Positions 1,247-31,512 of a DNA stretch of 64,000 nucleotides are shown here, one piece after another (position 1 is the first letter of the stretch; every line of letters starts with the position of its first letter). The stretch spans positions 5,213,001-5,277,000 of the forward strand of contig NC_092677.1 of the NCBI RefSeq assembly GCF_964355755.1. Reading direction: 5' to 3'. The translations under genes and the position numbers were made by a program. The notes under the pieces were generated by a model. The model was not told the origin of the DNA. It saw only the letters and a list, made by a program, of their open reading frames with translations, and did no database searches. This stretch comes from Antedon mediterranea (taxonomy: Eukaryota > Echinodermata > Crinoidea > Comatulida > Antedonidae).

Positions 1247-1446
1247 CTAACAAAATAAATTGTGTTTATTATTGTTTTGGTCCGTTTATGCGAACTACAA
1301 ACATACCACGATGGTATCATTTTAAGTTGAAATTCATTCTCATTCATTCGTTCGTTCTTGTCGTCTCACATTATAAGTGGTCAACGTAATGAAGATAACG
1401 TTTTCTGGCATATGCACAACTTTACCTACCAGTTTGTCATGGTTAA

Positions 1447-1530
1447 AATTAATTAATTACAATTAATAAATAGGCATATCAATACATTAATTAATTAATT
1501 ACAATTAATAAATAGGCATATCAATACATT
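1447..1530. repeat. Tandem repeat, 42 bp x 2
   Basis: Two nearly identical adjacent 42-bp copies containing AATAAATAGGCATATCAATA, lying in the intron between the signal and Ig exons of gene C. Confidence 0.75.
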
Positions 1531-1557
1531 TAGCGTTTTATACTATAATTAATTTAC

Positions 1558-1603
1558 CGTCAAATGAATGTATAACAATTAGCAGCGTCAACCATAATGT
1601 CAT
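1558..1603 (-). CDS. Gene C signal-peptide exon
   Basis: An ATG at 1603 opens 15 codons, MTLWLTLLIVIHSFD, then one base before a GTAAAT donor (phase 1). This is a typical short hydrophobic signal peptide. The split codon joins the phase-1 acceptor of the Ig exon at 1246 to give GAA (Glu) and keeps the frame. Length and phase match the signal exons of gene D (37765-37816) and gene B (51720-51762). No promoter was identified. Confidence 0.7.
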
Positions 1604-8375: not shown

Positions 8376-8705
8376 AAGCTCATGGTCAGTTGGTGACAAC
8401 TTCTGACCAGATAGCCAAGGAAGGTGATGCTGAAGTAGTGATAACTTGTGATTATTCACAATTTACTTCTACTGCACCACTTGCAGTACAATGGGATGAA
8501 CTAGATGAAAATGGAACAAGCACTAACATTGTAAATTATCTGAAGATAGAAAATGGCCGTTTTAAATTAAACAAAACACATGAGAAAGCCGAATTGCTGA
8601 TCTCACAGCCAATGCGATCTGATTCTAAACGAATATTTAAGTGCGAAGTACAAGAAAAATATTGGAATATTGAACCATCAAATCCAGCAACTCTAACTGT
8701 ATATT
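8376..8705 (+). CDS. Gene A exon 1 seen: Ig domain 1
   Basis: A 330-bp phase 1-1 exon (acceptor TTTTCAG, donor GTGAGT). It encodes a V-like Ig domain: EAHGQLVTTSDQ, AKEGDAEVVITC (B Cys), VQWDELDENG (C Trp), GRFKLN, KRIFKCEV (F Cys), LTVY. It is closest to the first Ig domains of genes B and D. There are N-linked sequons in the NGT and NKT words. As the N-terminal domain it is the likeliest ligand-binding module. Confidence 0.88.
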
Positions 8706-11700
8706 GTGAGTTTAACAGGTTAAATTTATATACTCGTACATTAATGACACCTATGCTTGTTTATTAATTGGTTGATTTTTTGTCTTTTTATTTTAATGTT
8801 AATTTTAGTTCCATTCTAATAGAAAAATTATCTTCAATACTTCTATCCAACATAAGCATAGAGAGCATACTCTTCATTGCTTTGTTCCATTGCCAAAATC
8901 TAAAATCTTTTGCATACATTAATTATGAGGAAATACCTCGAATAAATTTTCTTTATACATTTCATTCAGCACATACATACTGAATGTGAGTATTTAGCTG
9001 GTGTTAGAATCAAACTAAATCACTGTTAAAGTCACTGTAACAAAATAATGTATTATTTTAACTTGGTTGAAAGTTAAATAGCCTGTGAAAAACACTATAT
9101 TCAGTCGGCCAAAAACAGTACATGGCATTTTGTTACTGTATGATATCTTGCAAGGGTGAATATGTTTTTTGCACGTTAATTTATGTACAATGTTTTTCTC
9201 AGACTTAGGGCGCGTTTATACAACACACTATTACACGCATATTCAACACGCCTACGAGAAGTGTGTTGTATAACACCGAAGAGATTCCGTGTAATGAGAT
9301 TTTAATTGCAAAAAAGGCTACTTGGCTGAATCCTAAAATGTTGTGGATTCCCGGTTGCTGTTGGAAGTGTCCTCAGGGTATTGTTTTGACCTCTCGTTAA
9401 ATATAAGTATGTGCTGTGAAAATGTTGACCAAATCTAGTAGATAATTGTGCTTTTTTTGCATATTTTAACTGATTTAGCACTTAACATTAACGCTAATTA
9501 ATGTTGGCATAATTTGGAAAAATGTAGCATAGTTTTATCCTAATTCTAAAACATTATTTTTTTTATTTCAAAAGCAGATTTAAAAAATCAATAACTGAAT
9601 AAACTAAATTTTAAACGAAATCATCCATTTTATTAAAATCCTTAATAAACTAATATTAATTCATAATGCATGCGAGTATATATACATTACAACTTAGGAT
9701 TATGGTATAAATAACACGGTATTACGATTTAATGTATAACTGCAAGGTTTTTGTGGGGTTGATCTTGGCCCGTGCAACACGCTAAAAATTAAAGAAGTGT
9801 TCAACAAGCACTGTCTATGAAGGTCAATCAGTGACCTTTACCTGTAGTAAATCTGCATAAAAGAATAAATATATACATACAATGATTTAACAACATTTAT
9901 GATTTTTACTCTGGAAAATCTATTCTTAAAATACAATTTATATTTTCTTCCTTTTAATAATCAGACTTGGATCAACCACTTCTTGATGCCTCAGCAAGTA
10001 CTGTCTATGAAGGTCAATCAGTGACCTTTACCTGTAGTATACCTGATGGTGATCCTATTCCTCACATTACTTGGTATATAGATGGACAGACAGTCAACAC
10101 CAACAACCCTTCTAGATATGAGATTACCAATAACCGTACAGGGTCAATTCTTAAGATTAAATCAGTTACTGGAGAGGATGATTCAGGGAGATATACATGT
10201 AAAGCAGAAAGTGATCAGTTTAAAGGAGATGCTAAGACAAGTGTTGGAAAACAGTTGAATATAATTGTATATTGTATGTACAAAGTTAACTTTGGAGAAT
10301 AAATCAATAATTTATCAATATTAAATCAATATTATTTTCATATGAATGATACACACATGCATTATGTGGTCAATATTACTACAAAAAATGGTTTTATGAA
10401 ACATTGTTATCATATCTTTGTCTGCTATAAAACAATGATTCAATTAATGTAAAATTGTTTTAATTTATGCCTTTTTTAGATATTAATGTTACATATGAAT
10501 ATAAAAGTGGTTTAGCAACATGTACAGCAGAGGGCCATCCTAAGCCATCATCAGTATTGATATTACAAGATGGAGAAGTGGTTAAGGAAGGAAACAACAC
10601 AGCAACCATAGAAATTAATGATGAGATATGTCAAACAAATCTTATATGTTATACAGAGAATGAAAAGCTAAATAAAACAATGACACTACAGAACTGTACA
10701 GAAGGTATACCAAATGTTTTACAGATAGTTTTAGATATTTACTTTAATGTTCCTCAATTTAAAAACTAAGACAATTTTAAGATCAAGGTCTCTGACCCAT
10801 ACCATCTTTTAAATTCGTCTGCAAATAAGCTTCCGTCTAGAGGTTCAAATGTAGATCTAAGTAATATTTTCCACTGATAAAATCTCATAACATTTGAGCT
10901 TGACATAATGTGTAATTCTATTGATTCAAATATTTGTGTTAAATCATCAAATGTTAATAAGGGTAGACCCTTGCAATCTAACATGGTTGACAACAGTTTA
11001 GTTGGTAATATGGTAGCGTCAATAGTATTAGATACTTTTAGTAGTTTAAGTAAGGAATGTTAGCAATATTATTACCAAGCTTCCTAACAAGACCAGTCCC
11101 TTAGATCCCATCCCTACATGGATATGAAAGAGTTGTGCTGACGTTTTATTGCTTGCCATTTCCAAAATTTCTTTGTCGGGCTGTAATTACACCTTTGATT
11201 AAGAAATCAAAATTAAACCCAGATGTTTTAAAGAATTATCGTCCAGTCTCTGAGGCTGTGTTCGGACGTAAAATCAGTTAAATGTGTAACATTACATGTG
11301 TAGTCAGTGATCGTTCGGACGATGAACAATTTACATGCGTAAACTAACCCAGCAGGGTCATATTTCATGCATCTCTTTACACTATTAAGGTCAAATTGCT
11401 CCTTATCTTGCCGTTAATCAGCTTGTGGTTTAAGGTGTAAGTGAAAAATCCACCTCATGAAACAGCAAGTTTATCTCAAAATTTACACAACACGCGACCA
11501 TTGCACATGTAAATTTGTTCCGTCCAAACGGGCTCCAACCTTCCTACCTTAGGTAAGATTATAGAGTATCCAGCCATTTCCTGCTTTAAGAGACGCATTA
11601 AAGATAATAACCTTAATGAAACATATCACAGGCCCGTAGCCAGGGGGGGGGGGGGTTTATGGTTCGGGCGAATCCCCCCTTTACAGCGAACCCCCCTTAA

Positions 11701-14700: not shown

Positions 14701-17700
14701 AATTTACAACGGAACCTTTCACATTGTTTACAGTACATCATAGTAGGCCTAGTGTATTATTACCTCCGCCAAGGAGGTTATGTTTTCACCCTTGTGTGTT
14801 TGTGTGTGTGTCTGTGAACAGTCTGGAGGCCACAGTTTTTATCCGATTCTTACTAAATTTGGCCACAATTATCTATGCCTCAAAAGCTCGGACGAGTTCG
14901 AATTTGAGGGGAAAAGGTCATAGGTCAAGGTCACAACTAACAAAAAACTATTTTACTGCCTAGAGACCACAGTTTTTATCCAATTCTCACCAAACTTAGC
15001 CACAATGATCAATGACTCATCATATAATTGTGGTTAAATTTTGAAGGGTCAGGGTCAAAGATCAAGGTCCACAAAAAACAAAAACAAAAAAGAAATAAAA
15101 AAAATAATAATAATAAAAAAACCTCAGTGGGACTTGAACCAGCAATCTCAACTGTGAGAGGCTGGATACATAACCATTACACCAAACTCTCATCCACAAC
15201 TTTGTAGTGTGCAGTTAGCCTATTTACACTTAGAACTAATAAATAAAAAATATATATATATATAGTTCCGGGGACATTTTATGAATGGGAATTTTACAGT
15301 AGGCGGAGGTTTATACTCTCTAGTTTACAGATATTAGGCACACACTAGTAAAATACTTTTAACCAGTGTTTCAAATCATATAGTATGTATCATATAGTAC
15401 GGCAGTATGTAAATTTTTCCTTTTTTAAAATTCAAGCAATAGTTTACTTCCAAAGAAAGTTTCTTATACAATTTTAATGAATATGGTAATTGAAATGCAT
15501 ATCATAATTTATTAGGTATTTCAGAAGGTTTAGGATCATTCTACATCATCCTGATTGTTTTGGTTTGTGTTGCCTTGTTGCTATGGTTACTGCTTCTTGT
15601 TTGTAAGTAAATACTGTAGTAATTATTATTTTAATAAATTTACATCCATTTGTATTTAATTTTCTTTTTTAAGTACAAATTTATTTAATATATATTTATA
15701 ATAATTTTCATAATATTACTTTATTATAATGTTGTTAATAAGTTTTTATGATCAAAAAATAAGAATAGGTGTAGAATTATACAAATTGTACTTTTTATTT
15801 TAGATTTTATTCTTTACAAGAATATTGAGTGGAGCAATACAGATATTGATACAGTGACAGTTGAAGGTGGTAAACCAGTTGAGATGAGTTGGAAATACCG
15901 TCCAAGTATTGCAAGGTTCAAGACAGTTGAAATAAGGAAAGACAACAAGGTGCTTGGTTCAAATCAAAAGCAATTCAGTAGTTGGAAAACAGTCTGTCAG
16001 TTTGCCTGTTATTGCTGTCTTTACTTTTGTGGATTCTTTTGTATTGAATACTGTAAGAAATCATGTAAGTTATTACATATTTTTTGTTTATCCTAAAGTA
16101 TATTAATATTTTTCATACCATTTTATTTGGTTTTTTTTTCAAATCATCAGTTGAATAATTTAATTATTTTTTATTGTATTTTTTTGGACAATAAAATGAT
16201 ATGTAAATATTGATTTCTATATTCAATTTTCAATTTATTTATTCATTTTCTTTTTTACTAAAATGTTTTAGGTACTGACTGTATTTGTCCGTTTCAATAT
16301 ATTGTATTAATGCATTAACTCTTTGTTTTATTTCATAGTTGAATACAACAATAAAGATAAAAAGAAACACAGGTGAGTTTAGGTTTTTTAACCATTGTAA
16401 CATGATGATAAGAAGTTGGGTAGCCGAGTGGTTAGGACACTTGACTGTCATACAGAGAGACCTGGGTTCAATTCCCGAAAACTCCCAGTCTACTCAGCGG
16501 TAAATGAGTACCTGGTTGAAAATACTAGAGAGGATAAGGCGGCGTGGAAAGAAACTGGCCACCCTACCACATAATGCAGAGGCTTAGTAAAATGAGCTCC
16601 TAACAGCTCATTCCTGTACGTTCAGAACTGAATACTGAACTTACCTAACATGATTACATACATTATTTTTACTTTTTAAAATTTTAATCAAAGTATGAAA
16701 AACTAGTCTCACAATAAATTTTATTTCAATTTATAATAAAAAAGCTGTTTATTATGAGTGACAATAGAGGAGTGAAGAGTATCAGATGATTGTGAATGAA
16801 AGAGAATGTCCTGATGGTACAGATGGAGGTCCTTCTTGTTGTAGTTTAATATTATTATCTTGTATTATCTTAACCCTACAGCAATGGTGATAGAAGTGGT
16901 GAAGAGAGTCGCATGAACGGCAGTGAAAGAGAAGAACCTGATGGTGCAGATGTTCCTCTTGTTGTAATCAAATCCAGTTCACCAAACCAGTCTGCAGAAA
17001 CTGAAGACACTGCTGCACTTCCTAAATCTGGAGAAACATCAAAGGTTGGTACTATGAGAATAGTATCAACTAACTTGAAAAGACCATATATGAATAATCA
17101 TCTATTGTATATCATATTGGTATATCTGTCGTATATAAATATCTACTGCCAAACCTTACTCTTAAAATGCTATGTCAATAATTAATTCTACCATTATTTT
17201 GTGGCATTAAATTATGTCTAGTTATTTTGTATGTTGATATACAGTATATTGAATTTTTTTCACTTTCCTACAAATTCTAAAATAGATAAATAAATATAGC
17301 ATATGCTTACAACGTTATGCCTAGCTATCTTGCTATTTATTTAAATTTTCTGAATTTTCTATCAATCTCAAAATCATCTTATTTTACAACTGTCAAGGCA
17401 AGAAATTACCTACCACATGAAACAACCAACAATTAATAATGTTAGAAAAGAATTGAATTATTCTACGTATTTTACTGTCAATGTGTCATATTGAAAAAAA
17501 AAAATTAAATAATTGTGTCAAACATTACAGTATTTTAAAACATTCCTAAATGTAAAATCTGTTTCCTTTTTTTTATTCAAAGACAAATCCTGTTGATGAA
17601 GATAGTGAACTTTTAGCAGAACATCATGAAACATCTGGTGGGTATAAACTTTGCTATTTATTTATTTTCTTGATTACTTGTTTTAGCTTCAGGTGGAACA

Positions 17701-20700
17701 TGAATAGTTTATTTTTTACTTATTATTCATTCCAAAAAGTCCTGTTTCAAAAGAGTTGAATGTACTCTTACTTCAATCAATCAATCAATCAACTTAATTA
17801 TTTTTTTTTGGCTTAAGGGAGTAGTTAATAGGGGGCCAAACTCAATCAAGCAAACTATTCTGTCTCAGAAATTAAATCATTGTATTGTTGAAATTGCTAA
17901 TGAAGTACAGGTTTATTTATTTTTTTATTTTTTAGAAGTATTAATATTACAATATCTATGTTTGTTCTATCTTTATTTAAGGAGGACCCTTCAACATCGG
18001 TCATACAGTAAGAATCTTTGTTTAAAAACTTTAAAAGCGCAGTAGCATGCACAAAAAAATGTTTGAATATTGTTATAGCTAAGTTATGCAATCACAATTT
18101 CTATGACAATAATTGTGTAGAGATATGCATCAATTCTGAAGCATTTATAGAAAATATAATCTGTGTCTATCTAGATTCCAGTATTAAAATTAAGTTTTTT
18201 TTAAACATGTGAATATAATAATCCAAGCAATGTTGATTCAAGTGGTTATGGGCTGAGTGTAAGGCCGGTGTGCCGCAAAATAAAATATGTTCTTCATTGG
18301 TAAGAATTAGTCTTCTTGGACTGGATGTCCTGTTTACAAACCTGGTTTGTGAGAACCCAGTGCATCCCAGTAGTGGTTACCCCATTGTACTTGGCCATCT
18401 ACCCCTGTTTCACTTGTACACAATTTAGCCCAGTTACGCTGCAAGCTGGTATTTAGCACTTAGAGGTTTCATGACATCAGGCGCTTTATTAGTCCAGGAT
18501 ATTATTAAAATTTATTAAAAAGTCTCCCCAACCAAGATTTGAACCCGGACTACTGGGGCTTTTATGGTATTGTTCAAACCCCATTGGATAGCGACTCTTT
18601 CACTCTTGGTGTGGTACAGCCGAACAGCACTAGTCCTTAAATTGTACTCACCAGAGATCAAATTGATATTCCCTCATCTTTCAGTATTTTAAAGCAGGAA
18701 CAATTTTTCCATTTTTGTTCTATATAATTTTTGAGATCATGCTAATGTGTTTTCTCTTAATTTTCAGCTTTTTACTTTTAAACCTATTTATGTTGTGCAA
18801 GCTGGCTATAGTGATTCATACAGATGAACTAATATTGAATTTGTATTATTATATAGTCTGTTTTAATCATTTGTTTGTGATCAACACTTTCATGAAAACA
18901 TTTACAGTAGTACTCTTTATGGTTCTATATTTTCTAAAGGTTGTTGATTGATTGATTGAACAAAAATGTAACGTTGGTATAGAAGAAGTATAAACATAAA
19001 TTAATATATTTTTATTTATAAATTAAGATTACGTATGTATTAGGTATAGTTAAAACAAAGACAATGACCGCTCAAACTCCCAACTGTACAGTATAGTTTT
19101 GTTTTTTGCTATATACCATCATCACAGCTGTATTCTTTAAGTGTTGTATTATTTTTTATTTCATGTTCTAGCTAAAGACTTGAATGAAAGGTAATGTTTT
19201 CGGTATTTGATATTTATTTATTGGGATTCTTTTATGATAAAGATACACTTCCAGGAAAGCTTTTTTTTGTTCATATTTACCCATTTTTATTCAAAATTAC
19301 ACAAAATTAACCTTTCACTAACATATTCAACTTCATTCATTATATGAAGTACTTCATGCTATGACCAATGATTTACCACAGCCATTTCTATTTCTTTCAC
19401 TGATTTAAAACCTATCTGCTAGTTACAGTATGTACAACACATCTACATTCATGCAAAGCTAGTGAAATGCTTATAGTTTTTTTGCTATATGAGAATTGCC
19501 AAAACCTTACCTTTTATAATTTACAAGCCATGAACAATGGAGGATTTCAGATTCTTCAGATCAGCAAAAAACAAAATAACATAATGTGAATAGGATTCCT
19601 TATGCTTAATTCATGCATGCTTTTTTACAAAACATTTGATGAGCGAATGTTGAAGAACAGCCAGTGAGCAATCTATTTTTTTTCTTCTTTGGCAAACAAT
19701 TGTGTTTAGCTTTTTTGTTGTTTTTGTTTTTTGTGGCAATTTATCTTTATCGGTTTTATGGTTTGCCAGGCTAATTTGGTAGTTTACCTTTTTCCTTTCA
19801 TTATCTGCTGTCCCTACTGTACTATAATAATTTACATACTTTGCATACATCATTTTGGTTGCTTTATTTACCATAGATTATATACTGTCCTTCATTGCCT
19901 GCCTGTGTTCACCTGTTTTGTTCGTACCTTGGTTGCAGTCTTCTACAAAATACACTTAAATACATAGATATGTAGTATATATTCTTGCCATTCACTTCTC
20001 GCTGCATCTGGCCATTTATATTATTTATAATATGACTATATTGACCATATTCAGTATCATGTATCATATACATAACCTTACCAGATTATTTCTTCAATAA
20101 TTTGCCATTATTTGTATCTGTAATATTTGATTAAAAACTCATTACCATAAATTACATTGAATATTATTTTATACATTATATTACATTTTTTTTTTATAAC
20201 TTCAATTGGGTATTTTTAGCTTTGTGCATCTTTATTTTTTGAGTATTTTAAACACAAGCTTGCTTTTATCGTTTATGAATGGGGAGAATGTTTCTTGTAC
20301 CACATATTATACTAAATAGATAATGTTTAAAATATTAACTGTGTGTTTTGTAGAAAATAAATACTTAAATTTTATGTTTCACTTTATTCAATTTAACTTT
20401 TGTATGATTTCATCCATTAATTAAAGGAAACAATTTACATAGAGGAAAGTTGTTGAACGTGTATGTCAAAAGATCAGCTTATAGATTTTATTGTAATTTG
20501 CATAATAAAAATGCAATTTTGTTATATGAATTTACCACAACTTTTGATTATTAATTGATTAGTTGATTGATTGATAGTAGTCAAATTAGAATTTGTTTTG
20601 AAAAAAAAAGAGTTATATAGATCACATCACTACTTTCACTGTAAGTCCATATCTGGAATGCTACACAATTTTTTTTTTCATAAAATGTTAATATGGTACT

Positions 20701-23700
20701 AATATATTTATTATAAATTATTTATAATTATTACAAATATAAATAAATTACATTGTAGAGGGAAAGACCAATGAACTCTGATCATTTCAGCACCATTTGT
20801 AAATCCTATATTCTTTCTTAATTTTTTATAATATATGTATATTTTTTTGTTTTACAGATCTAAAACTTCTTACTCAAGTAAGTAACATGTTTTTTTTTGT
20901 GCAATTTTGTTTAACTATGTACAATAATTTATTTATCTTCTTCCTAGGACATTTATTTACATAACACATTTGCCCAAGGTATATTATTATTAAATACAAA
21001 ACATTAGATGCAAAATGAATTATTTGTTTTTTAGAAAAAAAACTGTTAAAGTAATATTTCTGGAAGCCATTAAATTAATGAATTTAGTTTTAGAAGGAAA
21101 ATTATAAAATGTCAGTGGTAAATGTAGTGATGCATTAGACAATGCCCATGGACAATGCACATTTTTATTTATTTTTACTTTCACAATTAAAAGTTGTAAA
21201 ATAAAGAAATTAAATTTTAGATGATTTCATTTAATGTTATTTTGTGTGTTTTTAAGTGTCTACTAGTGGTAGAGGAAGAATTAGCCTAACGGTTTCAAAT
21301 CCTGTGAGATATGATTCAGGAGAGTACAACTGCAGCATAGAGGACAATAGACAGCAGTATCCAGGTGTAAACAATTTATTTTTTTATTGTAAGTTTTATT
21401 TTCTATTTAAATTAAATCATTTATTAAGATGCTTAATTTTCAAATTTAAAATACTGTATCACTTCGGTAACTGTATATGTTGCTGAGTAGAATGTTTACA
21501 CATATTTTAGGAAACAGAATAGGCCTACCTCATTTATTTCTTTATCGATAGAATTTGTTATATAATTTTAAATGATTGCATTCATTTGATTGATATTTGT
21601 ACTATATTTAAATTTTTATATGAAGGGATTGAGATGATAGATCCCAAGTACTCGGCAGAACAAGGTATCAGTAATTTTGAAATGAAGTGCAGATATGAAC
21701 CAGCAGATATGCCATTAACAGGTTACAAGTGGAAGAAGATTAAGGAAGATGGCACAACAGAGATTGAGGATTGTTCTAAAGATTCTAGATTTGAAGTAAC
21801 AAGTGACCAATATAACATTCTGTCTTTGAAGATAAAGAAAGTAATACTTGGTAATGCTGGCAAGTATCAATGTGAAGTGAAGCCAATTGATGGAGACAAA
21901 ATACTGAAAGATACTACACAGCTAACAGTTAAAAGATGTAATTTTTTTTACAATTTACCTTAGCCTCTGCCCAATTGTTGTGTGATTTAGTTTTTCTTCT
22001 TAAAATGTGAAGAACAACACATTTTTAAATAATCAATCACTGTGTAGAAGACTTTGCATGTGGGTGTCTCAGTCCACCTCCACACAAGGCAGTAAAACTG
22101 ATCATTTTGTTAATCAATAGACAATTTTTTAGAATATTTATTTTGATTAATCAACTTTATGATAAGCAATTGCTTTACAGAATTATTATCTCTGTCTCTT
22201 TTCATAGATGCCATCAAAATTGATATTCCTGATGTTATTACTAATGAAAGTGTGAATGTTAAATTGTTCTTAAATCTAACATATGTTGATGATACTGCTA
22301 AAATATCCAATGTCAAGTGGTATAAGCAGGGTAAAGGTGAAACAAAGATGCTGCTGACATCATTACAACCACCATATTCAACACCAGGCTGTCAAAGCGC
22401 ATATGAGGACAAGAGTAAGGTGTACCTTAAGATCAACAATGTTGAATCGAAAGATGCAGGAAAATACGCATGCGAAGTGCAAGTTGAAGGAAGACAGAAA
22501 ATATACAGTTGTTTTGGGAGGTTAGAAGTTAAAGGTAATTTACTAGAATATTATGCCTATAGACTCCCGTAAAATGAATCAATTAGGCTGCTATAGAATG
22601 ATAAAACTTACACTTCAATAATAACCAATAACCATTTGATATGGTGGGTCTAAAATCAACTTGGTTGGGCAGGTTTGTCCACCATGTGCCCTTTTTTTAT
22701 GGCCAACGGGTGTCCCAAAGATTACACAATATGGCCAGTGAGCATTTGTGTCATTTTGTTTGTGGATGTCGTTAATGAATTATCTATTAATTTTTTATGG
22801 GGATGAAAGGTTTTTTTTTTATAGGAAAATTACCTGTTTATTTTTTTGTTTGAAACACATCCTTTGTTGACCATCTTTTATATGTTGAGATATTGTACAC
22901 TATAATTTTCAGGTTTTTTTCTTATTACAGTTTTAACAATGGAAACGAGTGAATTGCACTGTGTCGTAGGAGGAACTGCTACAATTCCTTTTTATGTGTC
23001 ACCAATACATAAACAAAATAAAGAATTTATCTTTTATAAATTTGAACTTGATAAATGGAAGAAAATTGCTGATAATAGACATACAATTATTAGCAGATTT
23101 AAAGTTAAATATAGTGAGGAAACGCTGACAGGTTTCCTTGAAATTTCTAAAGTTAAATCTTCTGATGCTGGTGACTACCGTTGCCAATGTGTGATAGAAG
23201 GAAAGGATGTTTACTCTACAACAAGCAGGTTGAAAGTTATCAAAGGCTGTAAGTATACAATATTAGGCCTAAAAATATATTTGTTAAAAGAGGAAAGGGA
23301 GTGTAAATTAAGTTACAGCCCCTCATGAAATGTCATAAAATAACAATAACAAATAATTCATCAGTTCAGTCTGTCGTTCTATGCACTCATGGGTAAGAGT
23401 GATGCAGCAATTGCAACCAACGTGTTTGGCGTTTCAGAATCTCAATGTCAGACGCATTACTGAAAATTTCTAATTATGCAATACTTTATAGACCTAATAT
23501 TATTCTGGCCCTTGATTTTCTATTCTTCCTATGTGTGTGTGTTTTAATAGAAGTGGTTCCAAGGGAGTTATAATAAAGAATTAACATCGCTTGGCTTCAT
23601 CTTGTCTTTAAATATTATTTCCAAAGTAACGCAAAGTATGAAATCTTTATTTCTGTACTAAAGAAACCAGAATGAGTATCCCTATATTTCCAAAATTCAT

Positions 23701-26700
23701 AATCAGAAATTCAAAATATTATATACTATATCTTTATTGTTAGTTTGGTTAATTTATAGAACTAGCAGTGCTAAGTTTGTTGAAATGCTGTATTTTAAAT
23801 AATTAAATACAACCGTGATACTGCGTGCAAGATGTACGGTACAAACAAAAATTATTGCCTGATAAACTTTTTTTTTGTCTGACAATAATATTAATCAATA
23901 TATTTTAATCGCCAATAAGAAATACACATTCAAATATTACTTTTATATCAAGATATTTGTTTGTTTTATTTTTTTTTCTGATGAAATGGTACTGTTGTAT
24001 ATTATTATTGTGATAGTAATTTCATCCAAAATATACTATTTTTACTTTTACTAGATATGAAACTCAATGATTGTCTTGTGATAAACGGGGAAAAGGCAGT
24101 TTTAACTTGCAAGTATGGACTTGAGAATCAAGTGAAATATGTCAATTGGTATAAGAAGACAGGGGATGAATCTCAACAGAAGAAGATAGAGAAAGTACCA
24201 GAAAGATGTAAAGTAACTCATAATAGCCTTAATCAAACAAGCCTAGAGTTCCCGGAAGTGACATTGGCTGATGATGGGGAGTACATATGTGAACTTACAA
24301 CTGCTACAGAAATAACCAAAAGCAAACTTTCAGAAATACATAGATCATCTGCACACTTGCATGTACAGTGTAAGTAAATTGTGTATTAAGCTGGTTATTT
24401 ATCAATCAAATTGTGTAAAGGTAGTACAGTAGTTTGAAGAAATATCGTTTTACCTAATAATAGTGTAATAAGATAAGATAAGATAAGATAAGATAACTTT
24501 TATTGATCCTCAAAAAGGAAATTCATTGCTCGTCATAATAACAAAGAAAACACTATAAAAACAATAGCATAAAACCATTCATATAAAAACATCTAAAAAA
24601 TTACAATATAAAATTATCTTCTTGACTTCCTGTTGTACTGGATGATACCGGAGGGAATAAAGGATTTAGCAAATCGATTTGTTTTCACACTGAGGAGCCT
24701 CAATCTACCACTTGGATTAAGTTGGTCTATGATCACTTTGTGGAGAGGATGAGAGGCATCCGACTCAATGCGTTCGAAATCTTTCTGGAGGTGTTCTAGG
24801 TGCACATCGGTAAAGGAAGGCAGTTCCAGACCAATCATTTTACCAGCCCGACGGATGAAAGTTTCAAGGCGTCCTTTATTCCCTCCGGTAACATTACCAG
24901 CCCAACAGGAGAGGCAATACGTCCAAACACTACATATAACGGATCTATAGAACGAAAGTAACATCAAATCACAGGAGTTAAATTTATATAAAGTTCTCAT
25001 ACAATACATTCTGGGACTTAATTTTTTGCTGATGAAGTCTATATGGTCTCCCCAACTCAGTTTATCATTGAAAACAATTCCTAGATACTTGTACTGGTCA
25101 ACAATTTCAATTTCTTTACCTTTGATAGTGATTGGTTGAAAATTAAATTTATGTTTAGTCCTAAAATCAATGATCATCTCCTTTGTTTTTGATGCATTTA
25201 TTTGGAGATAATTATCGTCACAAAATTTAACAAATCTTTGTATTTCGCTACGATAATTTTCATCATTGTTTGAAACTATGAGACCAATAGTACTAGTGTC
25301 ATCAGCGAATTTAACAACGGGGCAAAGCTCATCATTTAAAGATCTGTAATCCGCCGTATACAAGGAATATAATTTAGGTGCGTTGACAGTACCCTGAGGA
25401 ACACCGGTGTCAGAGGTTACGATTTCTGACTTAACACCATTAATATTAACAAATTGTTTTCTATCACAAATGAAATTTAAAACTAAACGAACAATCGGAC
25501 GGGGAAACTCCATATTCAACATTTTGTCTGCTAAGATATGGGGTTGTATGGTATTAAACGCAGATTGAAAATCAAAATACATAATACGTGCCGAGTGGCC
25601 TTTCTTTACATTAACTAGATGTGAATACAATTTATGTAATTTAAAATAAATCGCATCACTGGTACTACGGAGTGATCGGTAAGCAAATTGCAACGGGTCT
25701 AACACTTTTTCAGCATAAGGTTGCATAATTTTTAAAATAATACGTTCCAATATTTTCATCGCGACAGACGTGAGTGCAACGGGTCTCAAATCATTCATGC
25801 TGTTAATCTTAGGTTTCTTAGGTACCGGTATTATGCATGAAAGTTTCCAAATATCCGGGAACGCATGATAAGAAAGACACATATTGAAAATAAATGTAAA
25901 TATGCCATCAAGGTGAGGAGAGCAGACCTTAAGTACTCGTGGTAGGATTCTATCCGGCCCAGCAGCCTTCGATGAATTGAGTTTCATGAATTCGTTATGT
26001 ACATCAGAAATGCTTATACTAAATTTGGGATCATCTTCAGTCACCCGACACAAGCTAAATAGAGCCTCTCTTTCTTTTTTAAAATCATGAACATTAAAAC
26101 GGTTATAAAATTCATTTAACTCATTAACATATTGCACAGTAACATTCGGAATCGAGGTGGGTGTATTACCACCGTTTGTGTAACCACTCATAAGTTTCAT
26201 ACCCTGCCAAACTTGTTTCATATTATTAGACCTGAAGTTATGTTCAACTTTTTTCCTATAAATGTTCTTCTGTTTCATTATTTCAGATTTAATCTCTCTA
26301 GTCAATATTTTCATACGATTAGAGTCGCCCATCTTAAAGGCTTTACGTTTCTCACACAACAGTAATTTAACGCCTTTCGTGATCCATGGCTTGTTGTTAG
26401 GGTAGATTTTCACTTTTTTAACTGGAACGCATTTATCAATACAAAAGTTTATGTACGAGCTCACTGCATAAGTAATACTATTCAAATCTTCATCCTCCGT
26501 AAAAATATCCCAATCGGTAGATTCAAATTCCGCTATCAGGGCTTCCTCGGCTTCAGGAGACCATTTACGTACATTAATAATTTTTGGTTGGCATGTCTTA
26601 TTTAACGGGCGATATTTAGGACTGATTGGCTTTTCTCTATGCTTTGGTAATATACAGTACTGTATATTCAATTTTCTTAAATACCCAAACAATGGTAGGC

Positions 26701-29700
26701 CTACAGGCACTATTTTGTTTGGATATTCCATAATATATATTGTCATATGATTTCAAACGGTTAATAAATTCATTAATATATGTTTATATTGTAAACTGAT
26801 TTCATCAAAATACCTTTAGATATGAAAATGAGTGATTGCCTTGCAACACATGGTGATAAAGCTGTGTTAACTTGCAAGTATGGAAGTGAGAAACCAGTAA
26901 AAGCTGTCAATTGGTACAAGAAGACTGGTGATCAAGACATAATGATATTTACTTCTGATAAGTCTCAAGAGAAAAAGATAAAAAATGTGCCAGAAAGATG
27001 TAAAGCAAATTTTAAGGAAACTGAAACAAGCTTAGAGTTTGAGAAAGTGTCATTGACCAATGCTGGAGAGTACATGTGTAAAGTGAAGGAAGAACTTCCA
27101 TCACATACAGCATCAGCACACTTGCATGTACAGTGTAAGTTGCTTTCTACATATTTCTTGTCTACATGAAAATTGATATTATAATACAATTGATTGACTT
27201 GAGGAATATAGTTAAAAATACCCATTTTGGTCTAAAGGCAATATGATACCTGTCAGATGAATTACTGTAATTGTGGGGTATTGTTTGATAAATTAAATGT
27301 TGTTTCCAACTTTGATGTACTGTACTGTATAATCCACAATTAATTGTAAAGACTTGAAAAAAGTTATCAACCTCCAGATCACTAACCCGGAACTCATACC
27401 TTTCGCTCACATAGCTTACACATAATATAATCATTGTTTATGAGTTATAACAATAATTTTCTTTATTCAAGTAGGGAGTTGTAATTACAATTTAATAATG
27501 ATTTTTGAGATGTTTTCAAGAGGGGGTCGAACATGATTTAATTCCATGTTTCAAGGAAATACATACATTATTTTATTAGATTAAATTGTTATTCAATTAA
27601 TGTTGAAGGCTAGGCTGATGCAACATTTGGTACTCCCTTTTGACTGGTGGAGCAGGAAAATTCAGAACTGGGTTAGTATTGGAATTCATAACAAATTATG
27701 ACACCTAGCTTGTCATTAATTTCCATTCCCTTATTTTTATAGGCGATGTGTTTACTGAACAAGTTAAAACACACAGGTAAATTGATTTCCATTCAAAAAA
27801 ATTATTTTCTAGTCTATTTTATTTTTGAAAGTCAACATCTAGGTTTGAATTTGACTTTAAAATAACTTCTTAATTTAAGAGAATTATCTTGAAATTGTAC
27901 TAAAATTTATACATCTCTACATTTTTCTCCTTTTAGACACCCTGCAGTAGTCTTTATAAATTCTCATTTTATCATCTTTTGTGAGGAAAATAACTCAGAT
28001 GTGATAATGAGAAGAGGAAAATTGAAAGGCAAGAGTTTGATTGAATGGGAAGAAACACAAATCATTTTAAATGAAAAGGAAACAAGGTAATTAGTATTGT
28101 GTTGACCGACATTGGCAAACATTGTTTGCTGGTCATTATATTTCATACATTTAAGAAATCAATTATTAAGTTTCATTTGCTATGTTATTACCAATGACAT
28201 TAATATCTAAGAACATTTGTAAATTTTATTTAGAAACAACTACGGTACAAAAGATGTCTCCAAAAAGTGGACAATATTGATTCTAAAAATGTGAAACATT
28301 TTTTTTAATAATTCTACAAATTTACTATACAGTTTTCAGAATCTAGTACCAATTGTGACAGATAAGAAAAATGGAAAAATGATTCTAATGTGTGTTAGAC
28401 AAAATAACAACACAAAAGAGAGGAAGATAATAAGGATGAAATCTGATGATAATGGAGAGAATTGGAAAGAACCAGAAGATGTACAATTGGATTTGAAAGG
28501 CTTACCCATAGATTTTATAAGTTAGTATAAATTTGTATTGAAGTTGATATTAAATATCTGAGCTGTACATCGTGGTTTTGAATATTAGTAATATTCAAAA
28601 CCATGATTTGTGCCTCTATGTAGGTAAATTTTTTATACTTTTCTAATTTCAGTACTATTATTATTTAGATTATAAACCCATTTACTGATACCATACACAA
28701 GAAGCAACAATTGAAACAACCAGTTTTTCACAAATGTTTTATGTACTTACCAAAATACTGATTTGTTATAGGGGTTTTGTGTATGTTTTTTAAATAACAT
28801 TGTATAAAGAAAATGTTTAATTTTATCTATCTTGTTGCTTGTTGAACAATTTTAATATATATTTTTTTTACTTTATGTAGTAAACAGTATAAATGTTTGC
28901 AATTATATGAAATATGTATAAATTGTTTTTCAGGCCTTGGTCATGGTGTATGCTTACATTCAGGAAAATTGGTTGTTGCAGGAGTATGGATGCTAAAGGA
29001 TAATGAAAGCATAGAAAGTAATTTAATTAAATAATCTTATAAATTAAGGAGGTCCCCAAATATTTATTATGTACATTGGTGATCGTTGTTGAACTGTATA
29101 ATTCCTTAAATGATTATATTTGTTTTAGATATGTCAAAGATCTTTAAACTCCTCCAGTCTGCTCGCTTGAATTGTGTCATCTGTGAACCATGCATTAATT
29201 CTTAATTTGAATTCAATAATAACTCATCACAATGACCCAAGAACAGCAGTTGATCTAAACATTTGTTTCTGTTTATAAAGTCCAGTACTATATCAACCTG
29301 CATGGAGAGATAATAGTTAACACAAATGTTGCTGAGGTTTTCATGTTTATGGTTTGCCTTTTTTTTATTGGAAATTGTTGTTTATTTTTCAGAAAAACTG
29401 TGTGTGATGACAAGTACTGATGATGGTGACACCTGGGATATTGTAACAGCTGTTAAACCACAAGATGCTACTTTAGGAGAACACACACAAGTAAGAAACT
29501 TGGAAATGCCTAGGGTTTCATTTCTAATGATCATGCCATTTTGTCATATACAGTAATATGTGTGGTGTTCCACAGGGATCCATCCTTGGTCCGCTTTTAT
29601 TTCTGTTATTTATTAATGATTTAAATTATATTAGTGATTGTGCTGAAATTGTTATGTTTGCAGATGATACAAGTTTATTTATTAATCATAAGGACATCTA

Positions 29701-31512
29701 CCAAGCTATTATTTTAATGAATCAAGAACTTACTAAAATTGCAAACTGGTTAAAATCAAATAAGCTTTCGTTAAATATTAAAAAAACCAAATTTATTATT
29801 TTTCGTTCAGTTAATAAACTAATCCCCCCCAACATTCCTAAATTATATTACGGCATCAGCGAAATTGAAAGAACTAAAGCAACAACATTTCTTGGCATTT
29901 TTATTGACGAATACTTATCTTTTATTTCTCATATTAATACAATTTCATTAAAACTATCAAGAGTGGTCGGTGTCCTCAATAAACTCAAACATGCCTTGCC
30001 TTCCTCCGTTTTACTATTAATTTATAAATCACTCTTTTTGCCACATTTAATTTATGGTATAACCGTTTGGGGTTTTACTTCAAAAATTAATTTAAACCGT
30101 ATTTATATTTTGCAAAAAAGAGCTTTAAGATCAGTTTATAATGTTCATTACCTCCACCATTCTGCTCCTCTTTTTGTCTTATCTAATACACTTAATATTT
30201 ACGACTTACTTACAAAAAATGTTGCTTTATTTATGTTTAAATTCAAACATAATCAACTGCCCAGAATTTTTGATACTTATTTTCAAACTTTTAGTTCAGT
30301 TCATAATTATAATACCAGAAATAAATTTGATTATGCTTATGATTGTTTTAATACGGAGGTTGGCAAGCATGATATAACTTTTCAAGGACCAAAAATTTGG
30401 AATTCTTTACCAGATGAAATTAAAATTATTAATTTTATATCTTCATTTAAGTTCAAACTACATGAATACCTTGTTTCTACTATTATTATTTAAGTTGATC
30501 ATATATCTGTCTTAAGTCAAATAATAACTGCATTTGTTAAGTTAAATGTCTTTTTATGTTCATTATCATATATTATATTTATTTCTTACCTTACCTTACT
30601 TTTAATTATGTTGCCAGGACCCCACATTTTAAAGCTTAAGCTTCCTGTGGGGTACCCCTTTTTCTCATTTATTATCTATTATTTTTAGAAAATGTTAACT
30701 GTTTTTTTGTGTTTTTATTTGAGAAATAAAAATTATTGATTGATTGATTGATATGATTTGTTTATTAGGTTGTTGAATATGCAAATGATGATGTTTACAT
30801 CAGTTGTTCATTGGAGGAATGTAAACAGCGTTTCCATGTATACAGTGAAGAAGGATTTAAAGCGTTTGATGTCAAGACTGAGGATGCACAATTAGAGGCA
30901 AATCCAGAGTGCCAGGTATACTCTACAATCTTGTTCTATTCTACCTAAGTTATTGCGTTCTACTGCATTTATTAGCGTGTGGACGACAGGTATATAGTAT
31001 CACACGGTTTGCCTTGTGTGTAATTTAACATCGTTTTTATGCTGAAGTGGGAAATTAGTATTATAGAGGATACGCGAAACAAACATACCCCATAGTTATT
31101 TGAACATTATTTAAAGGATTTTTAAATTGCAATACTTGCAATTATTTGCTTTAACATTTATATGATGATAATATAATGTTATGTTATTTTGAATTATATT
31201 ATTATCTAGGGTGGTATTGTACGCTTAACAACAAAGACTAATAAGTTCTACCAAGTAGCAGTGACAAGTCATGGAAACGAGACAAACAAGGAGCTTACAC
31301 TTTACTTAAGTAAAGATGGTTGTAAAACCTGGTGTCAGTTTAACACACTAGGTGCAGTGAATGCAGAAGAATCTGACCTAGCTTACTACAGTGTAAAAGA
31401 AGGAGAAGAACAAGCAAAAGGAATAGTGTGTGTTTACAGTTATGGTTCAGAAACAAAGGGGTATAATATTGGAATGCAGTTGATTCCTAACAAAGAAATT
31501 ATGTTAATGTAA
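8376..31512 (+). CDS. Gene A: Ig receptor fused to a sialidase-like domain (23 exons)
   Basis: All exons keep one frame: 8376-8705, 9965-10273, 10480-10704, 15525-15602, 15804-16064, 16339-16372, 16882-17044, 17583-17637, 19172-19190, 20858-20877, 21257-21388, 21626-21937, 22208-22534, 22931-23248, 24055-24369, 26820-27134, 27743-27776, 27937-28086, 28333-28520, 28934-29017, 29393-29490, 30769-30915, 31210-31512 (TAA). That gives about 1,405 residues without a signal exon. Order: Ig x3, membrane span, half Ig plus Cys-rich hydrophobic segment, hydrophilic tail, half Ig, Ig x5, sialidase. Gene B repeats almost every exon length and phase, which supports one transcript. Membrane topology is uncertain, and a second promoter or alternative isoforms are possible. 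The individual exons are described separately. Confidence 0.65.
9805..9849 (+). pseudogene. Partial duplicate of Ig2 exon in the intron
   Basis: 45 bp (CTGTCTATGAAGGTCAATCA and flanks) repeat the Ig2 exon segment at 9995-10039 with one mismatch, 190 bp upstream of it. The sequence just after it (AGTAAATCTG) looks more like gene B and D Ig2 than gene A Ig2. It lacks an acceptor and the rest of the domain, so it is an exon relic. Confidence 0.75.
9965..10273 (+). CDS. Gene A exon: Ig domain 2 (I-set/C2-like)
   Basis: A 309-bp phase 1-1 exon (TAATCAG acceptor, GTATGT donor). Features are LDQPLLDASASTVYEGQSV, TFTCS (B Cys), ITWYIDGQTVN (C Trp), ILKIKSVTGEDDSGRYTCKA (the D-x-G-x-Y-x-C signature) and NIIVY. 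It is a strongly canonical I-set-like domain. The homologous exons are 52619-52912 (gene B) and 36089-36388 minus (gene D). Confidence 0.92.
10480..10704 (+). CDS. Gene A exon: compact Ig domain 3
   Basis: A 225-bp phase 1-1 exon, exactly the same length as in genes B and D. It encodes a short C2-type Ig domain: GLATCTAEGHPKPSSVLI, LQDGEVVKEG, TIEINDEICQTNLICYTENE, TLQNCTEG. It has several N-linked sequons (NNT, NKT, NVT, NCT). It is the membrane-proximal ectodomain in gene D, so probably here too. Confidence 0.88.
11251..11535. mobile_element. Small TIR element (MITE) inside the LINE remnant
   Basis: It interrupts the LINE reading between the RPVS and NLP motifs, which are normally adjacent in reverse transcriptases. 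The ends are imperfect inverted repeats: GGCTGTGTTCGGACG on the left and, complemented, GGAGCCCGTTTGGACG on the right. It has no coding capacity. Confidence 0.6.
11629..12711. mobile_element. TIR element with G-run ends (CAGGCCCGTAGCCAGG)
   Basis: A 1,083-bp element. The left end CAGGCCCGTAGCCAGG is followed by a G-run. The right end is CCTGGCTACGGCCCTG preceded by a C-run. Both sides are flanked by TATCA (11624-11628 and 12712-12716), a likely target duplication. It splits the LINE pseudogene, so it inserted later. Open frames inside on the minus strand (11681-12010, 12278-12610) show no recognisable domain. Confidence 0.78.
13478..14110. repeat. Dispersed repeat with tRNA-like promoter word (SINE/MITE-like)
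   Basis: It starts with CACTCCGAGAGTGCATA and holds TTCACTACAAGCATTTTTAT, TTTGGTGTAATGGTTATGTA and GGTCCAGAATTGGGACTGTG. The same phrases recur in the same order at about 57580-58080 in gene B, in a different intron. The complement of 15121-15190 also contains GGTGTAATGGTTATGTATCC, so this repeat family occurs at least three times here. Confidence 0.6.
14750..15335. repeat. Dispersed repeat bounded by inverted CCTCCGCC/GGCGGAGG
   Basis: ACCTCCGCCAAGGAGGTTATG at 14760 and GTAGGCGGAGGTTTATACTCTC near 15300 form inverted ends. Inside are two copies of a GGTCA...AGGTCA phrase next to CCACAGTTTTTATCC. A tRNA-like stretch lies on the minus strand at about 15121-15190 (A-box-like GTGTAATGGTTATG, B-box-like GGTTCAAGTCC). 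This fits a SINE or MITE composite. Confidence 0.55.
15525..15602 (+). CDS. Gene A exon: transmembrane segment
   Basis: A 78-bp phase 1-1 exon encoding EGLGSFYIILIVL followed by VCVALLLWLLLLV, one continuous hydrophobic run long enough to cross a membrane. The next exon adds YFILYKN. Gene B has the same exon at 54525-54593 (SLYIVLIVVGLLLTWLLLLV). Because both ends are phase 1 it can be skipped without breaking the frame, so membrane and non-membrane isoforms are possible. Confidence 0.85.
15804..16064 (+). CDS. Gene A exon: half Ig domain plus Cys-rich hydrophobic segment
   Basis: A 261-bp phase 1-1 exon, the same length as in gene B (54771-55031). It reads YFILYKNIEWSNTDIDTVTV, then EGGKPVEMSWKYRP and FKTVEIRKDNKVLG, which look like strands A to C' of an Ig domain with no B-strand Cys. 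Then comes CQFACYCCLYFCGFFCIEYC and KKS. The last part is either a second membrane span or a cluster of lipid-modified cysteines, followed by basic residues. The missing Ig half seems to be the exon at 21257. Unusual, but conserved in both genes. Confidence 0.82.
16339..17637 (+). CDS. Gene A exons: hydrophilic (probably cytoplasmic) tail
   Basis: Three exons: 16339-16372 (FEYNNKDKKKHR, phase 1 to 2), 16882-17044 (SERE, EPDGADVPLVVIKSSSPNQS, ETEDTAALPKSGETSK, phase 2 to 0) and 17583-17637 (TNPVDEDSELLAEHHETS, phase 0 to 1). The stretch is basic at first, then acidic. EDSELL fits the acidic dileucine sorting motif ([DE]xxxL[LI]), which is normally read by AP adaptors on the cytosolic side. Gene B keeps the motif (EDIKLL) although its neighbours differ. 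That suggests a cytosolic location for this part. Confidence 0.75.
16413..16660 (+). repeat. tRNA-derived SINE
   Basis: It begins with a tRNA-like head: A box TAGCCGAGTGGTTAGG and B box GGGTTCAATTCCC. A non-tRNA body follows, with AAAGAAACTGGCCACCCTAC and CTCCTAACAGCTCATTCC. A second copy lies at 56172-56400 with the same order. It sits in the intron between gene A exons 16372 and 16882. It is not a functional tRNA gene, because the stem pairing and length are wrong and the body is repeated elsewhere. Confidence 0.75.
17638..19171. other. Gene A intron; possible minus-strand SINE remnant at 18480-18640
   Basis: No exon recognised. On the minus strand near 18540 the words CCGGGTTCAAATC (B-box-like) and AGTCGCTATCCAATGGGG hint at a degraded tRNA-derived repeat. 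Short AATC/GATT microsatellites occur near 17775 and 18945. Confidence 0.35.
19172..20877 (+). CDS. Gene A mini-exons linking tail to distal Ig domains
   Basis: Two tiny exons: 19172-19190 (19 bp, AKDLNER, phase 1 to 2) and 20858-20877 (20 bp, SKTSYS, phase 2 to 1). Both have good splice sites (TTCTAG/GTAATG and TTACAG/GTAAGT). Gene B has the same two exons with identical lengths and phases (56005-56023 AKDSNER, 58302-58321 SKTSYS). Together their phases bridge the tail exon to the half-Ig exon. Their conservation is the main evidence that the upstream receptor half and the downstream Ig-sialidase half form one transcript. Confidence 0.75.
21257..21388 (+). CDS. Gene A exon: C-terminal half of an Ig domain
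   Basis: A 132-bp phase 1-1 exon, same length in gene B (58419-58550). It holds GRGRISLTVSNPVRYDSGEY followed by NCSI, the E to F strands with the D-x-G-x-Y-x-C signature, and then a G strand. It has no A to C strands of its own. The best partner is the half domain at 15804-16064. An N-linked sequon (NCS) lies at the F strand. Confidence 0.83.
21626..21937 (+). CDS. Gene A exon: Ig domain (IEMIDPKYS type)
   Basis: A 312-bp phase 1-1 exon. IEMIDPKYSAEQG, FEMKCRY (B Cys), YKWKKIKEDGT (C Trp), ILSLKIKKVILGNAGKYQCE (F Cys) and LTVK. It is a full Ig domain with both cysteines. Gene B 58760-59074 is a close copy, many stretches being identical, which suggests recent duplication or gene conversion. 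Confidence 0.88.
22208..22534 (+). CDS. Gene A exon: Ig domain (AIKIDIPDV type)
   Basis: A 327-bp phase 1-1 exon, identical in length to gene B 59870-60196. AIKIDIPDVITNESV, VKLFLNLTY where the B-strand Cys is not at the usual place, VKWYKQGKGE (C Trp), VYLKINNVESKDAGKYACEV (F Cys). An extra Cys (PGCQSAY) precedes the E strand. It carries an N-linked sequon (NLT), which suits a lumenal or extracellular location if used. Confidence 0.86.
22931..23248 (+). CDS. Gene A exon: Ig domain (VLTMETSEL type)
   Basis: A 318-bp phase 1-1 exon. TSELHCVVGGTATIPFYVS, with the B-strand Cys early, FIFYKFELDKWKK in the C strand, GFLEISKVKSSDAGDYRCQC (F Cys) and VIKG. The gene B partner is 61197-61517. A canonical V/I-set F-strand signature is present. 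Confidence 0.86.
24055..24369 (+). CDS. Gene A exon: Ig domain (MKLNDCL type, copy 1)
   Basis: A 315-bp phase 1-1 exon. MKLNDCLVINGEKAVLTCKY (B Cys), VNWYKKTGDE (C Trp), TSLEFPEVTLADDGEYICEL (F Cys), LHVQ. The next exon (26820-27134) is a tandem copy of the same length. Gene B has only one such exon (62125-62451). Confidence 0.88.
24471..26660 (-). mobile_element. 5'-truncated LINE (CR1/L2/Rex-like) in a gene A intron
   Basis: An antisense element. Its long frame (stop near 24614) has SSKAAGPDRILPRVLKVC, FDFQSAFNTIQP, TGVPQGTVNAP and the catalytic VKFADDTS, followed by a C-terminal thumb region. The endonuclease is missing except for a short end. The 3' end is AATAAAAG followed by a TTATC tandem tail at 24471-24500, as in LINEs that end in short repeats rather than poly(A). 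It lies between two duplicated Ig exons. The RT frame is intact, so the insertion is young. The 5' limit near 26650 is approximate. Confidence 0.85.
26820..27134 (+). CDS. Gene A exon: Ig domain (MKMSDCL type, copy 2)
   Basis: A 315-bp phase 1-1 exon, the tandem paralogue of 24055-24369. MKMSDCLATHGDKAVLTCKY, VNWYKKTGD, TSLEFEKVSLTNAGEYMCKV, LHVQ. Its middle differs, with IMIFTSDKSQEKK inserted where copy 1 has ESQQKK, while the far end is shorter, so total length is unchanged. Confidence 0.88.
27743..28086 (+). CDS. Gene A exons: start of the sialidase-like domain
   Basis: Exon 27743-27776 (DVFTEQVKTH, phase 1 to 2) and exon 27937-28086 (phase 2 to 2). Across the junction the protein reads HRHPAVVFINSHFIIFCEEN, then NSDVIMRRGKLKGKSLIEWE. 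This matches the start of animal NEU-type sialidases: the Arg-x-Pro box, the Phe/Cys-Glu-Glu strand, a possible acid/base Asp, then the RRG and xxW words. The first catalytic Arg position is kept. Gene B has the same pair (62725-62770 and 63641-63790). Confidence 0.8.
28333..28520 (+). CDS. Gene A exon: sialidase-like domain with Asp box
   Basis: A 188-bp exon (phase 2 to 1, acceptor CTATACAG, donor GTTAGT). SFQNLVPIVTDKKNGKMILM resembles the NPxP...G.L.LFF strand of NEU enzymes. IIRMKSDDNGENWKEPEDV carries an Asp box (S-x-D-x-G-x-x-W). No membrane segment or Ig feature. Confidence 0.8.
28569..28607. repeat. Intronic hairpin (18-bp arms, 3-nt loop)
   Basis: Arms ATCGTGGTTTTGAATATT (28569-28586) and AATATTCAAAACCATGAT (28590-28607) pair with a single G.T (G.U in RNA) position and an AGT loop. 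It lies 49 bp after the sialidase exon donor. Confidence 0.85.
28934..29017 (+). CDS. Gene A exon: sialidase-like GxGHG segment
   Basis: An 84-bp phase 1-1 exon reading SLGHGVCLHSGKLVVAG, then VWMLKDNESIE. It matches the highly conserved GPGHGxQLxSGRLVVPA segment of animal sialidases, with Pro lost. Confidence 0.82.
29393..29490 (+). CDS. Gene A exon: sialidase-like Asp box and Glu segment
   Basis: A 98-bp exon (phase 1 to 0). KLCVMTSTDDGDTWDIV has a perfect Asp box (STDDGDTW). The end, LGEHTQ, continues in the next exon as VVEY and lines up with the GECQVAE segment of NEU enzymes, where the catalytic Glu lies. That Glu appears to be kept. Confidence 0.82.
29550..30750 (+). mobile_element. 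5'-truncated LINE (jockey/CR1-like) in a gene A intron
   Basis: A sense-strand frame 29558-30493 starts inside the RT palm: CGVPQGSILGPLLFLLFIND, catalytic VMFADDTS, ANWLKSNKLSLNIKKTK, FLGIFIDE, and ends with the usual FQGPKIWNSLPDEI segment. A short 3' UTR leads to AATAAAAATTATTGATTGAT, a TTGA-type tandem tail ending near 30750. The whole N-terminus is missing, so it is dead on arrival. It lies 18 bp before the next sialidase exon, so its tail lies against the acceptor region. Confidence 0.85.
30769..30915 (+). CDS. Gene A exon: sialidase-like domain, divergent active-site segment
   Basis: A 147-bp phase 0-0 exon. VVEYANDDVYISCSLEECKQ aligns by eye with the NEU segment ending in N-A-R, but has I-S-C there, so the second triad Arg appears lost. 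YSEEGFKAFD is a degraded Asp box and NPECQ matches the GCQGS turn. The acceptor (TTTATTAG) sits just behind the LINE tail. Confidence 0.8.
31210..31512 (+). CDS. Gene A last exon: end of sialidase-like domain, stop TAA
   Basis: 303 bp, phase 0 at the acceptor (TATCTAG). GGIVRL, VAVTSHGNETNKELTLYLSK (the third triad Arg position seems to be Lys), SKDGCKTW (Asp-box-like), EESDLAYYS (NEU enzymes have YSDL with the nucleophile Tyr; here it is Glu), then IGMQLIPNKEIMLM and stop at 31510-31512. AATAAA words at 31761 and 31771 are likely poly(A) signals. The fold is kept, but catalysis is doubtful. Confidence 0.82.
   Translation, partial: GGIVRLTTKTNKFYQVAVTSHGNETNKELTLYLSKDGCKTWCQFNTLGAVNAEESDLAYYSVKEGEEQAKGIVCVYSYGSETKGYNIGMQLIPNKEIMLM

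Follow-up and report, generated by a model that had tools for sequence, protein, structure and literature searches.

The 64,000-nucleotide stretch of the crinoid Antedon mediterranea analysed here (the window; C8:5213001-5277000 in a genome of 354 Mb and 18 contigs) carries on its plus strand a long immunoglobulin (Ig) gene, gene A (8376 to 31512), and a second one, gene B, that continues beyond the right end, together with two short Ig genes on the minus strand. Gene A has 23 conserved exons and one doubtful 18-base candidate. Its AG/GT borders and splice phases chain into a single frame of 1412 codons, closed by a TAA at 31510-31512. The frame encodes three Ig domains, followed by a membrane exon, the very conserved exon 5 and a tail; half an Ig domain (exon 12) and five more Ig domains then lead to the terminal sialidase-like domain. 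This agrees with the original prediction, in which 23 phase-matched exons between 8376 and 31512 joined Ig domains, a membrane exon and a tail to more Ig domains and a NEU-like domain ending in a stop: all the exons named there exist with AG/GT borders, the number is 23 once the candidate at 17982-17999 is dropped, and the splice chain to the TAA and the Pfam matches to Ig and BNR_2 follow the same order. When the translated exons were searched against Pfam, the Ig exons matched V-set, I-set and Ig_3 well above cut-off and the distal part matched BNR_2. Neither a fibrinogen nor a chitin-binding domain was found by Pfam beside the Ig domains in the parts of gene A searched.

The first half of gene A, like the rest of it on the plus strand, begins with three Ig exons of phase 1-1. 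Exon 1 (8376..8705) has proper splice borders and belongs to a type matched 50 times in the genome, with 47 of the matches in the 4.70-5.80 Mb region of C8. Exon 2 (9965..10273) matches Ig_3 with an E value of 9.5e-23, and the third Ig-like exon (10480..10704), which gave no strong Pfam match when taken singly, has homologous exons in gene B, in a unit on C3 and in other units; Pfam recognises Ig domains over exons 1-3 combined. A partial copy of exon 2, about 50 bases long, lies upstream of the real exon at 9801-9855. Exon 4 (15525..15602, phase 1-1) encodes the transmembrane segment, with a hydropathy of 3.57 over 19 residues, and an equivalent exon with AG and gtaagt borders was present at 17 of the 19 exon-5 loci searched. 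Exon 5 itself (15804..16064, phase 1-1) is extremely conserved, its 19 genomic copies having 64-89% relative score, and finishes in a cysteine-rich hydrophobic end (TVCQFACYCCLYFCGFFCI) whose hydropathy is 1.75 in gene A and 0.93-2.00 across the copies. The tail follows with a lysine-rich mini-exon (exon 6, 16339..16372, phase 1-2) that has counterparts in other units, exon 7 (16882..17044, phase 2-0), with splice borders and copies in other units, and exon 8 (17583..17637, phase 0-1), which contains an acidic di-leucine-like motif, EDSELL, and retains its GT donor in every copy where the exon was found. No ITIM was seen by eye in exons 6-8. The 18 bases at 17982..17999 were considered as an internal or terminal exon and rejected, with their weak donor (gtcata) and no counterpart in gene B; they are probably no exon.

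The second half starts with two mini-exons: exon 10, of 19 bases (19172..19190, phase 1-2), is found with its splice sites in gene B and in units u4762, u5690, u4899 and u5079, with a weaker 19-base counterpart in u5650, and exon 11, of 20 bases (20858..20877, phase 2-1), differs by at most one base in gene B, u4762, u5690 and u4899 and has a 20-base homologue in the C3 unit. Exon 12 (21257..21388) encodes the second half of an Ig domain, including the motif DSGEYNC, and has counterparts at about 20 places. The five Ig exons 13 to 17 (21626..21937, 22208..22534, 22931..23248, 24055..24369 and 26820..27134) are supported by splice borders, phase and Pfam, which finds V-set in five stretches. 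The sialidase-like domain begins with a 34-base exon 18 (27743..27776), retained in u4887 and u4781, and continues through exons 19 (27937..28086), 20 (28333..28520), 21 (28934..29017) and 22 (29393..29490), all supported by splice borders, phase and the comparison of copies, to exon 23 (30769..30915), placed by the alignment of copies, and exon 24 (31210..31512; 18 copies compared), which contains the stop. Two reverse-transcriptase-like open frames, LINE-like in character, lie within introns of gene A (24614-26752 on the minus strand and 29531-30493 on the plus strand).

Exons 1-5 and 12-17 are each symmetric (phase 1-1), and exons 6-8 and exons 10-11 form symmetric blocks with phase 1 in and phase 1 out, so that skipping any of these exons or blocks leaves the frame intact. 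As exon 1 starts in phase 1, a signal-peptide exon must exist upstream of it; a scan of the upstream DNA revealed no convincing one for gene A, gene B or the C3 unit, and a similar scan does detect the signal peptides of the two short minus-strand Ig genes.

Gene B (52032..64000, plus strand) was aligned with gene A and has the same exon order: Ig1 at 52032, Ig2 at 52619, Ig3 at 53970, the transmembrane exon at 54525, exon 5 at 54771, exon 8 at 55667, mini-exons at 56005 and 58302, exon 12 at 58419, Ig exons at 58760-62451 and a first sialidase-like exon at 63641. Its sialidase-like part crosses the end of the window and reaches a stop at C8:5,278,967. The earlier claim that gene B repeats the order with the same mini-exons thus holds for the chain from 52032, mini-exons included, and fails for the 34-base exon 18, whose counterpart was not found in gene B. 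Between the two genes many exons have a dN/dS below 1 and some distal exons reach values close to or over 1 (exon 15, 0.26/0.26; exon 21, 0.41/0.22), although these exons are short and the values have a wide error. The slowest-evolving exon overall is exon 5, where dN (0.06) and dS (0.13) are both low, possibly through gene conversion or a constraint at the DNA level. Unusually few synonymous differences among paralogues are likewise seen in exon 5 when the copy at 15804-16064 is taken with the 18 others.

Whole-genome searches with the distal and middle parts of gene A showed that C8 holds about 18 units within 4.75-5.79 Mb, a 1-megabase cluster of duplicated genes. In this region exon 5 is present 17 times and the last sialidase exon about 18 times; copies of exon 12 lie between them, order and strand are consistent, and exon 5, exon 12 and the sialidase end are co-linear in most units, which were read in selected pieces. 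Outside C8 there are two further units. The one on C3 has a chain of Ig1, Ig2, Ig3, transmembrane exon, exon 5, exon 8, exon 11, exon 12, Ig exons and sialidase exons, with a few exons of the chain not found; the one on C4 has Ig1, transmembrane exon, exon 5, exon 7, exon 12 and several Ig exons, and showed no sialidase exon in the sequence read, which extends about 4 kb past the last Ig match. The many ordered copies on C8 and the copy on C3 argue that the exon chain of gene A is not due to chance. Two copies, L017 and L021, are damaged, the end of their last exon being disturbed.

Of the 16 long units checked, 14 are arranged head-to-head with a second Ig gene, in most cases a short, receptor-like gene. 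For plus-strand long units with Ig1 the nearest upstream neighbour is a minus-strand Ig1 in 12 of 12 cases, and the mirror-image pairing was found for two of the four minus-strand long units, the partner here being identified only as an Ig1 copy. Upstream of gene B and divergent from it, exon matches and the signal-peptide scan define a short receptor gene on the minus strand (34819..37816) with a signal peptide at 37816-37765, Ig exons at 37421-37101, 36388-36089 and 35838-35614, a transmembrane exon at 35143-35058 and a tail exon at 34950-34819 that contains several tyrosines (GDYKEGYLASNEARYRPKIQ), possibly signalling motifs. The start of the second short gene, divergent from gene A, lies at 926..1603 on the minus strand (signal peptide about 1603-1558, Ig1 at 1246-926) and the gene extends to the left of the window with Ig2, a transmembrane exon similar to that of the gene B partner and a related tail exon, giving a signal peptide and at least two Ig domains. 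The repeated occurrence of this divergent arrangement suggests that the two genes share regulatory control or function as a pair.

Several lines of evidence place the distal domain, as far as its sequence goes, in the sialidase family by fold. Exons 18-24 match BNR_2 with 74.5 bits and an E value of 1.2e-20 (cut-off 31.4), a PDB search with this part returned bacterial sialidases, a profile of six family copies matched PDB sialidases with an E value of 1.4e-7, and Asp boxes can be read directly in exon 20 (SDDNGENW), exon 22 (STDDGDTW) and exon 24 (SKDGCKTW). In characterised sialidases an arginine triad orients the carboxylate of sialic acid and a tyrosine is the nucleophile (PMC4646021). Seven copies from C8 and the one from C3 were aligned (MAFFT) with three canonical NEU1-like proteins encoded on C5, and the position of arginine 3 was compared in 18 copies. 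The NEU1-like sialidases of C5 (L001-L004) are canonical exons of the same genome with signal-peptide-like N termini, and as internal controls they retain the triad arginines and the glutamate of YE. In the gene A family, arginine 1 (YRIP in sialidases, here RHP) is retained in most copies and is the only arginine of the triad left, its split codon AG|A being completed by the first codon of exon 19; the glutamate of VVE is also retained. Arginine 2 (NAR in the C5 controls), in exon 23, is S or C in all readable copies, a loss also seen in the profile alignment to NanJ from the PDB. Arginine 3 (ARKNITL in C5a), in exon 24, is absent from 18 of 18 copies, being N in gene A and N, T, K, D, E or similar in the family, and the partner glutamate of YE is changed to S (YS) in nearly all copies. 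The position of the nucleophilic tyrosine depends on the alignment: it is Glu in a gapless alignment from the last Asp box and Tyr in the MAFFT alignment, which has a five-residue gap.

An active sialidase, in a receptor that would read or trim sialic acid, has in its favour a sequence clearly of the sialidase family, one retained triad arginine and the VVE glutamate. The substrate is also likely to be present: the GT29 sialyltransferase family is greatly expanded in this genome, with at least 150 exon matches over C1-C11 and several tandem arrays, so sialic acid is probably abundant in this animal. Sialic acids occur mainly in the deuterostome lineage (PMC3431349), which the wealth of GT29 matches would suit. 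Against an active sialidase stand the missing arginine 3, the loss of arginine 2 and the changed YE glutamate, and we give very little credence to an active enzyme. With two triad arginines gone and the glutamate changed, canonical sialidase activity or sialic-acid binding by the distal domain seems unlikely; the complete triad of enzyme-type sialidases is lacking and the domain would fall outside that group. Probably it binds or props instead of cutting sialic acid. The earlier claim that sialic-acid recognition is built into the protein is thus not supported: arginines 2 and 3 are absent wherever their positions are readable, and the C5 sialidases retain both.

Whether the two halves belong to one gene cannot be read from their co-linearity by itself, as segmental duplication could move two neighbouring genes jointly. 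Two adjacent, co-duplicated genes, a three-Ig membrane receptor stopping after exon 8 and a secreted Ig/sialidase-like protein starting near exon 12 or 13, would remove the topology problem discussed below; they would also suit the large distance that separates exons 12-13 from exon 8 in certain units, exceeding 8 kb in u5690 and 12 kb in the C3 unit, and the C4 unit, which retains the first part and several Ig exons and has no detected sialidase part. However, exon 8 retains a splice donor instead of a stop; exon 12, as half a domain, cannot be a normal protein start; and the mini-exons between the halves, conserved with their phases, fit only as internal exons. Indeed, phases 1-2 (19 bases) and 2-1 (20 bases) make sense only within a transcript that links a phase-1 exon to exon 12. 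The original prediction had taken a separate start between 17.6 and 21.3 kb as a sign of two genes; no conserved start or signal-peptide exon was seen between exons 8 and 12, in a scan of low power that is also silent upstream of genes A and B. Furthermore, the introns of genes A and B between tail and exon 12 do not align, and around mini-exon 10 and mini-exon 11 there are aligned stretches of 66 bases (80%) and 42 bases (90%), respectively. This conservation of the mini-exons, in sequence, length and splice sites, where the introns have diverged favours one gene, u4762 and u5690 being less independent as evidence because their introns still resemble those of gene A. From these sequence features it appears probable to us that both halves belong to one gene, whose full exon chain a single transcript may carry, and the two-gene explanation appears unlikely.

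A single chain raises a problem of topology. Cysteine-paired Ig domains lie on either side of the membrane exon, so one membrane crossing cannot satisfy the topology: a full chain with only the certain crossing would place the distal Ig domains and the propeller in the cytosol. One solution would be a two-pass protein in which the membrane exon leads into the cell and the cysteine-rich stretch of exon 5 leads out again, making all the Ig domains of both arms, and the propeller, extracellular within one chain. The place of exon 5, hydrophobic stretch included, among the best conserved exons speaks for it, but the hydrophobicity of the stretch is marginal, as is its candidacy for a membrane segment, and the lysine-rich mini-exon straight after it would be outside, contrary to the positive-inside tendency. 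We consider this main alternative decidedly unlikely. A wider proposal, which we hold to be quite unlikely, is that of a two-ended surface protein encoded by a multi-copy locus. Its Ig arm and its Ig-propeller arm would both face outwards, joined by a membrane hairpin whose inner loop is extremely conserved, and each long gene would lie head-to-head with a short receptor with a tyrosine tail; the whole would make up a diversified recognition system with a retired sialidase at its base.

The reading we prefer is alternative splicing: the symmetric phase-1 exons around the membrane segment mean that splicing could give membrane-bound and secreted forms, and skipping the membrane exon and tail would leave the Ig domains of both sides extracellular. 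Exon 12 together with the mini-exons resembles the second half of an Ig domain, for which no missing half was identified with significance. A profile that fuses exon 5, cut at an alternative internal donor, with exons 10-12 gives an alignment of 71 columns, crossing the junction, with the Ig domain that follows. The exon-5 half alone scored 17.2, and shuffled profiles reached 20.6; as it falls inside the shuffled range, an alternative donor within exon 5 that completes the Ig domain with exons 10-12 was not established, and exon 5 as the source of the missing half is suggestive only.

Taken as a whole, the data are best explained, with a probability that we put at about 60%, by gene A being one unit in a family of recognition genes of the immunoglobulin superfamily that evolve fast and are duplicated in tandem; one chain would carry a non-canonical sialidase propeller with a binding or scaffold role and be made in different splice forms. 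The protein would have three N-terminal Ig domains, the membrane segment, the very conserved exon and the tail, followed by an Ig array capped by the sialidase-fold propeller. Most probably its Ig domains would bind a variable partner and the propeller would act as a binding or scaffold module, with recognition as the putative function of the family.

Siglecs bind sialic acid through a conserved Arg of their N-terminal V-set domain and have an ITIM-type tail. They are likewise Ig-superfamily membrane proteins with a cytoplasmic tail but, unlike gene A, have no sialidase fold. Metazoan NEU sialidases (GH33; NEU1-5) share the sialidase-family propeller sequence and the Asp boxes with gene A, whose domain differs from them in the loss of two triad arginines and the YE glutamate and in being joined to Ig domains and a membrane segment; a survey of metazoan sialidases contains no mention of immunoglobulin domains (PMC3431349). 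Invertebrates have repeatedly formed diversified recognition families from Ig domains and a second domain, such as the FREPs of snails, with fibrinogen (PMC7588048), and the VCBPs of amphioxus, with a chitin-binding domain (PMC2632668). Gene A resembles these families in pairing Ig with a second domain type and differs from them in the partner domain and in its far larger number of Ig domains. For the Alr genes of the Hydractinia allorecognition complex, in contrast to gene A, no sialidase-like domain has been reported. A membrane exon is not known to be typical of FREPs or VCBPs. A literature search of partial coverage, in which absence is weak evidence, found no animal Ig-sialidase gene, and the combination of Ig and sialidase-like domains is probably new. 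Of the undescribed receptor class proposed originally, the Ig-membrane-Ig-sialidase-like exon chain is supported and the built-in sialic-acid recognition is not. The family is best described as real, unusual and multi-copy, of the diversified Ig-plus-partner type with a probable pseudo-sialidase. A sialidase-fold partner that lacks catalytic residues and is present, accompanied by short receptors, in some 18 linked copies would add a new type of Ig partner, here in a genome with very many sialyltransferases, and the locus offers a defined place to test self/non-self or pathogen recognition.

Elsewhere in the window, a minisatellite of 21-base units occupies 39040-41490, its blocks alternating in orientation and leaving several frames open, and a third reverse-transcriptase-like open frame (LINE-like element) lies at 42303-44645 on the minus strand.
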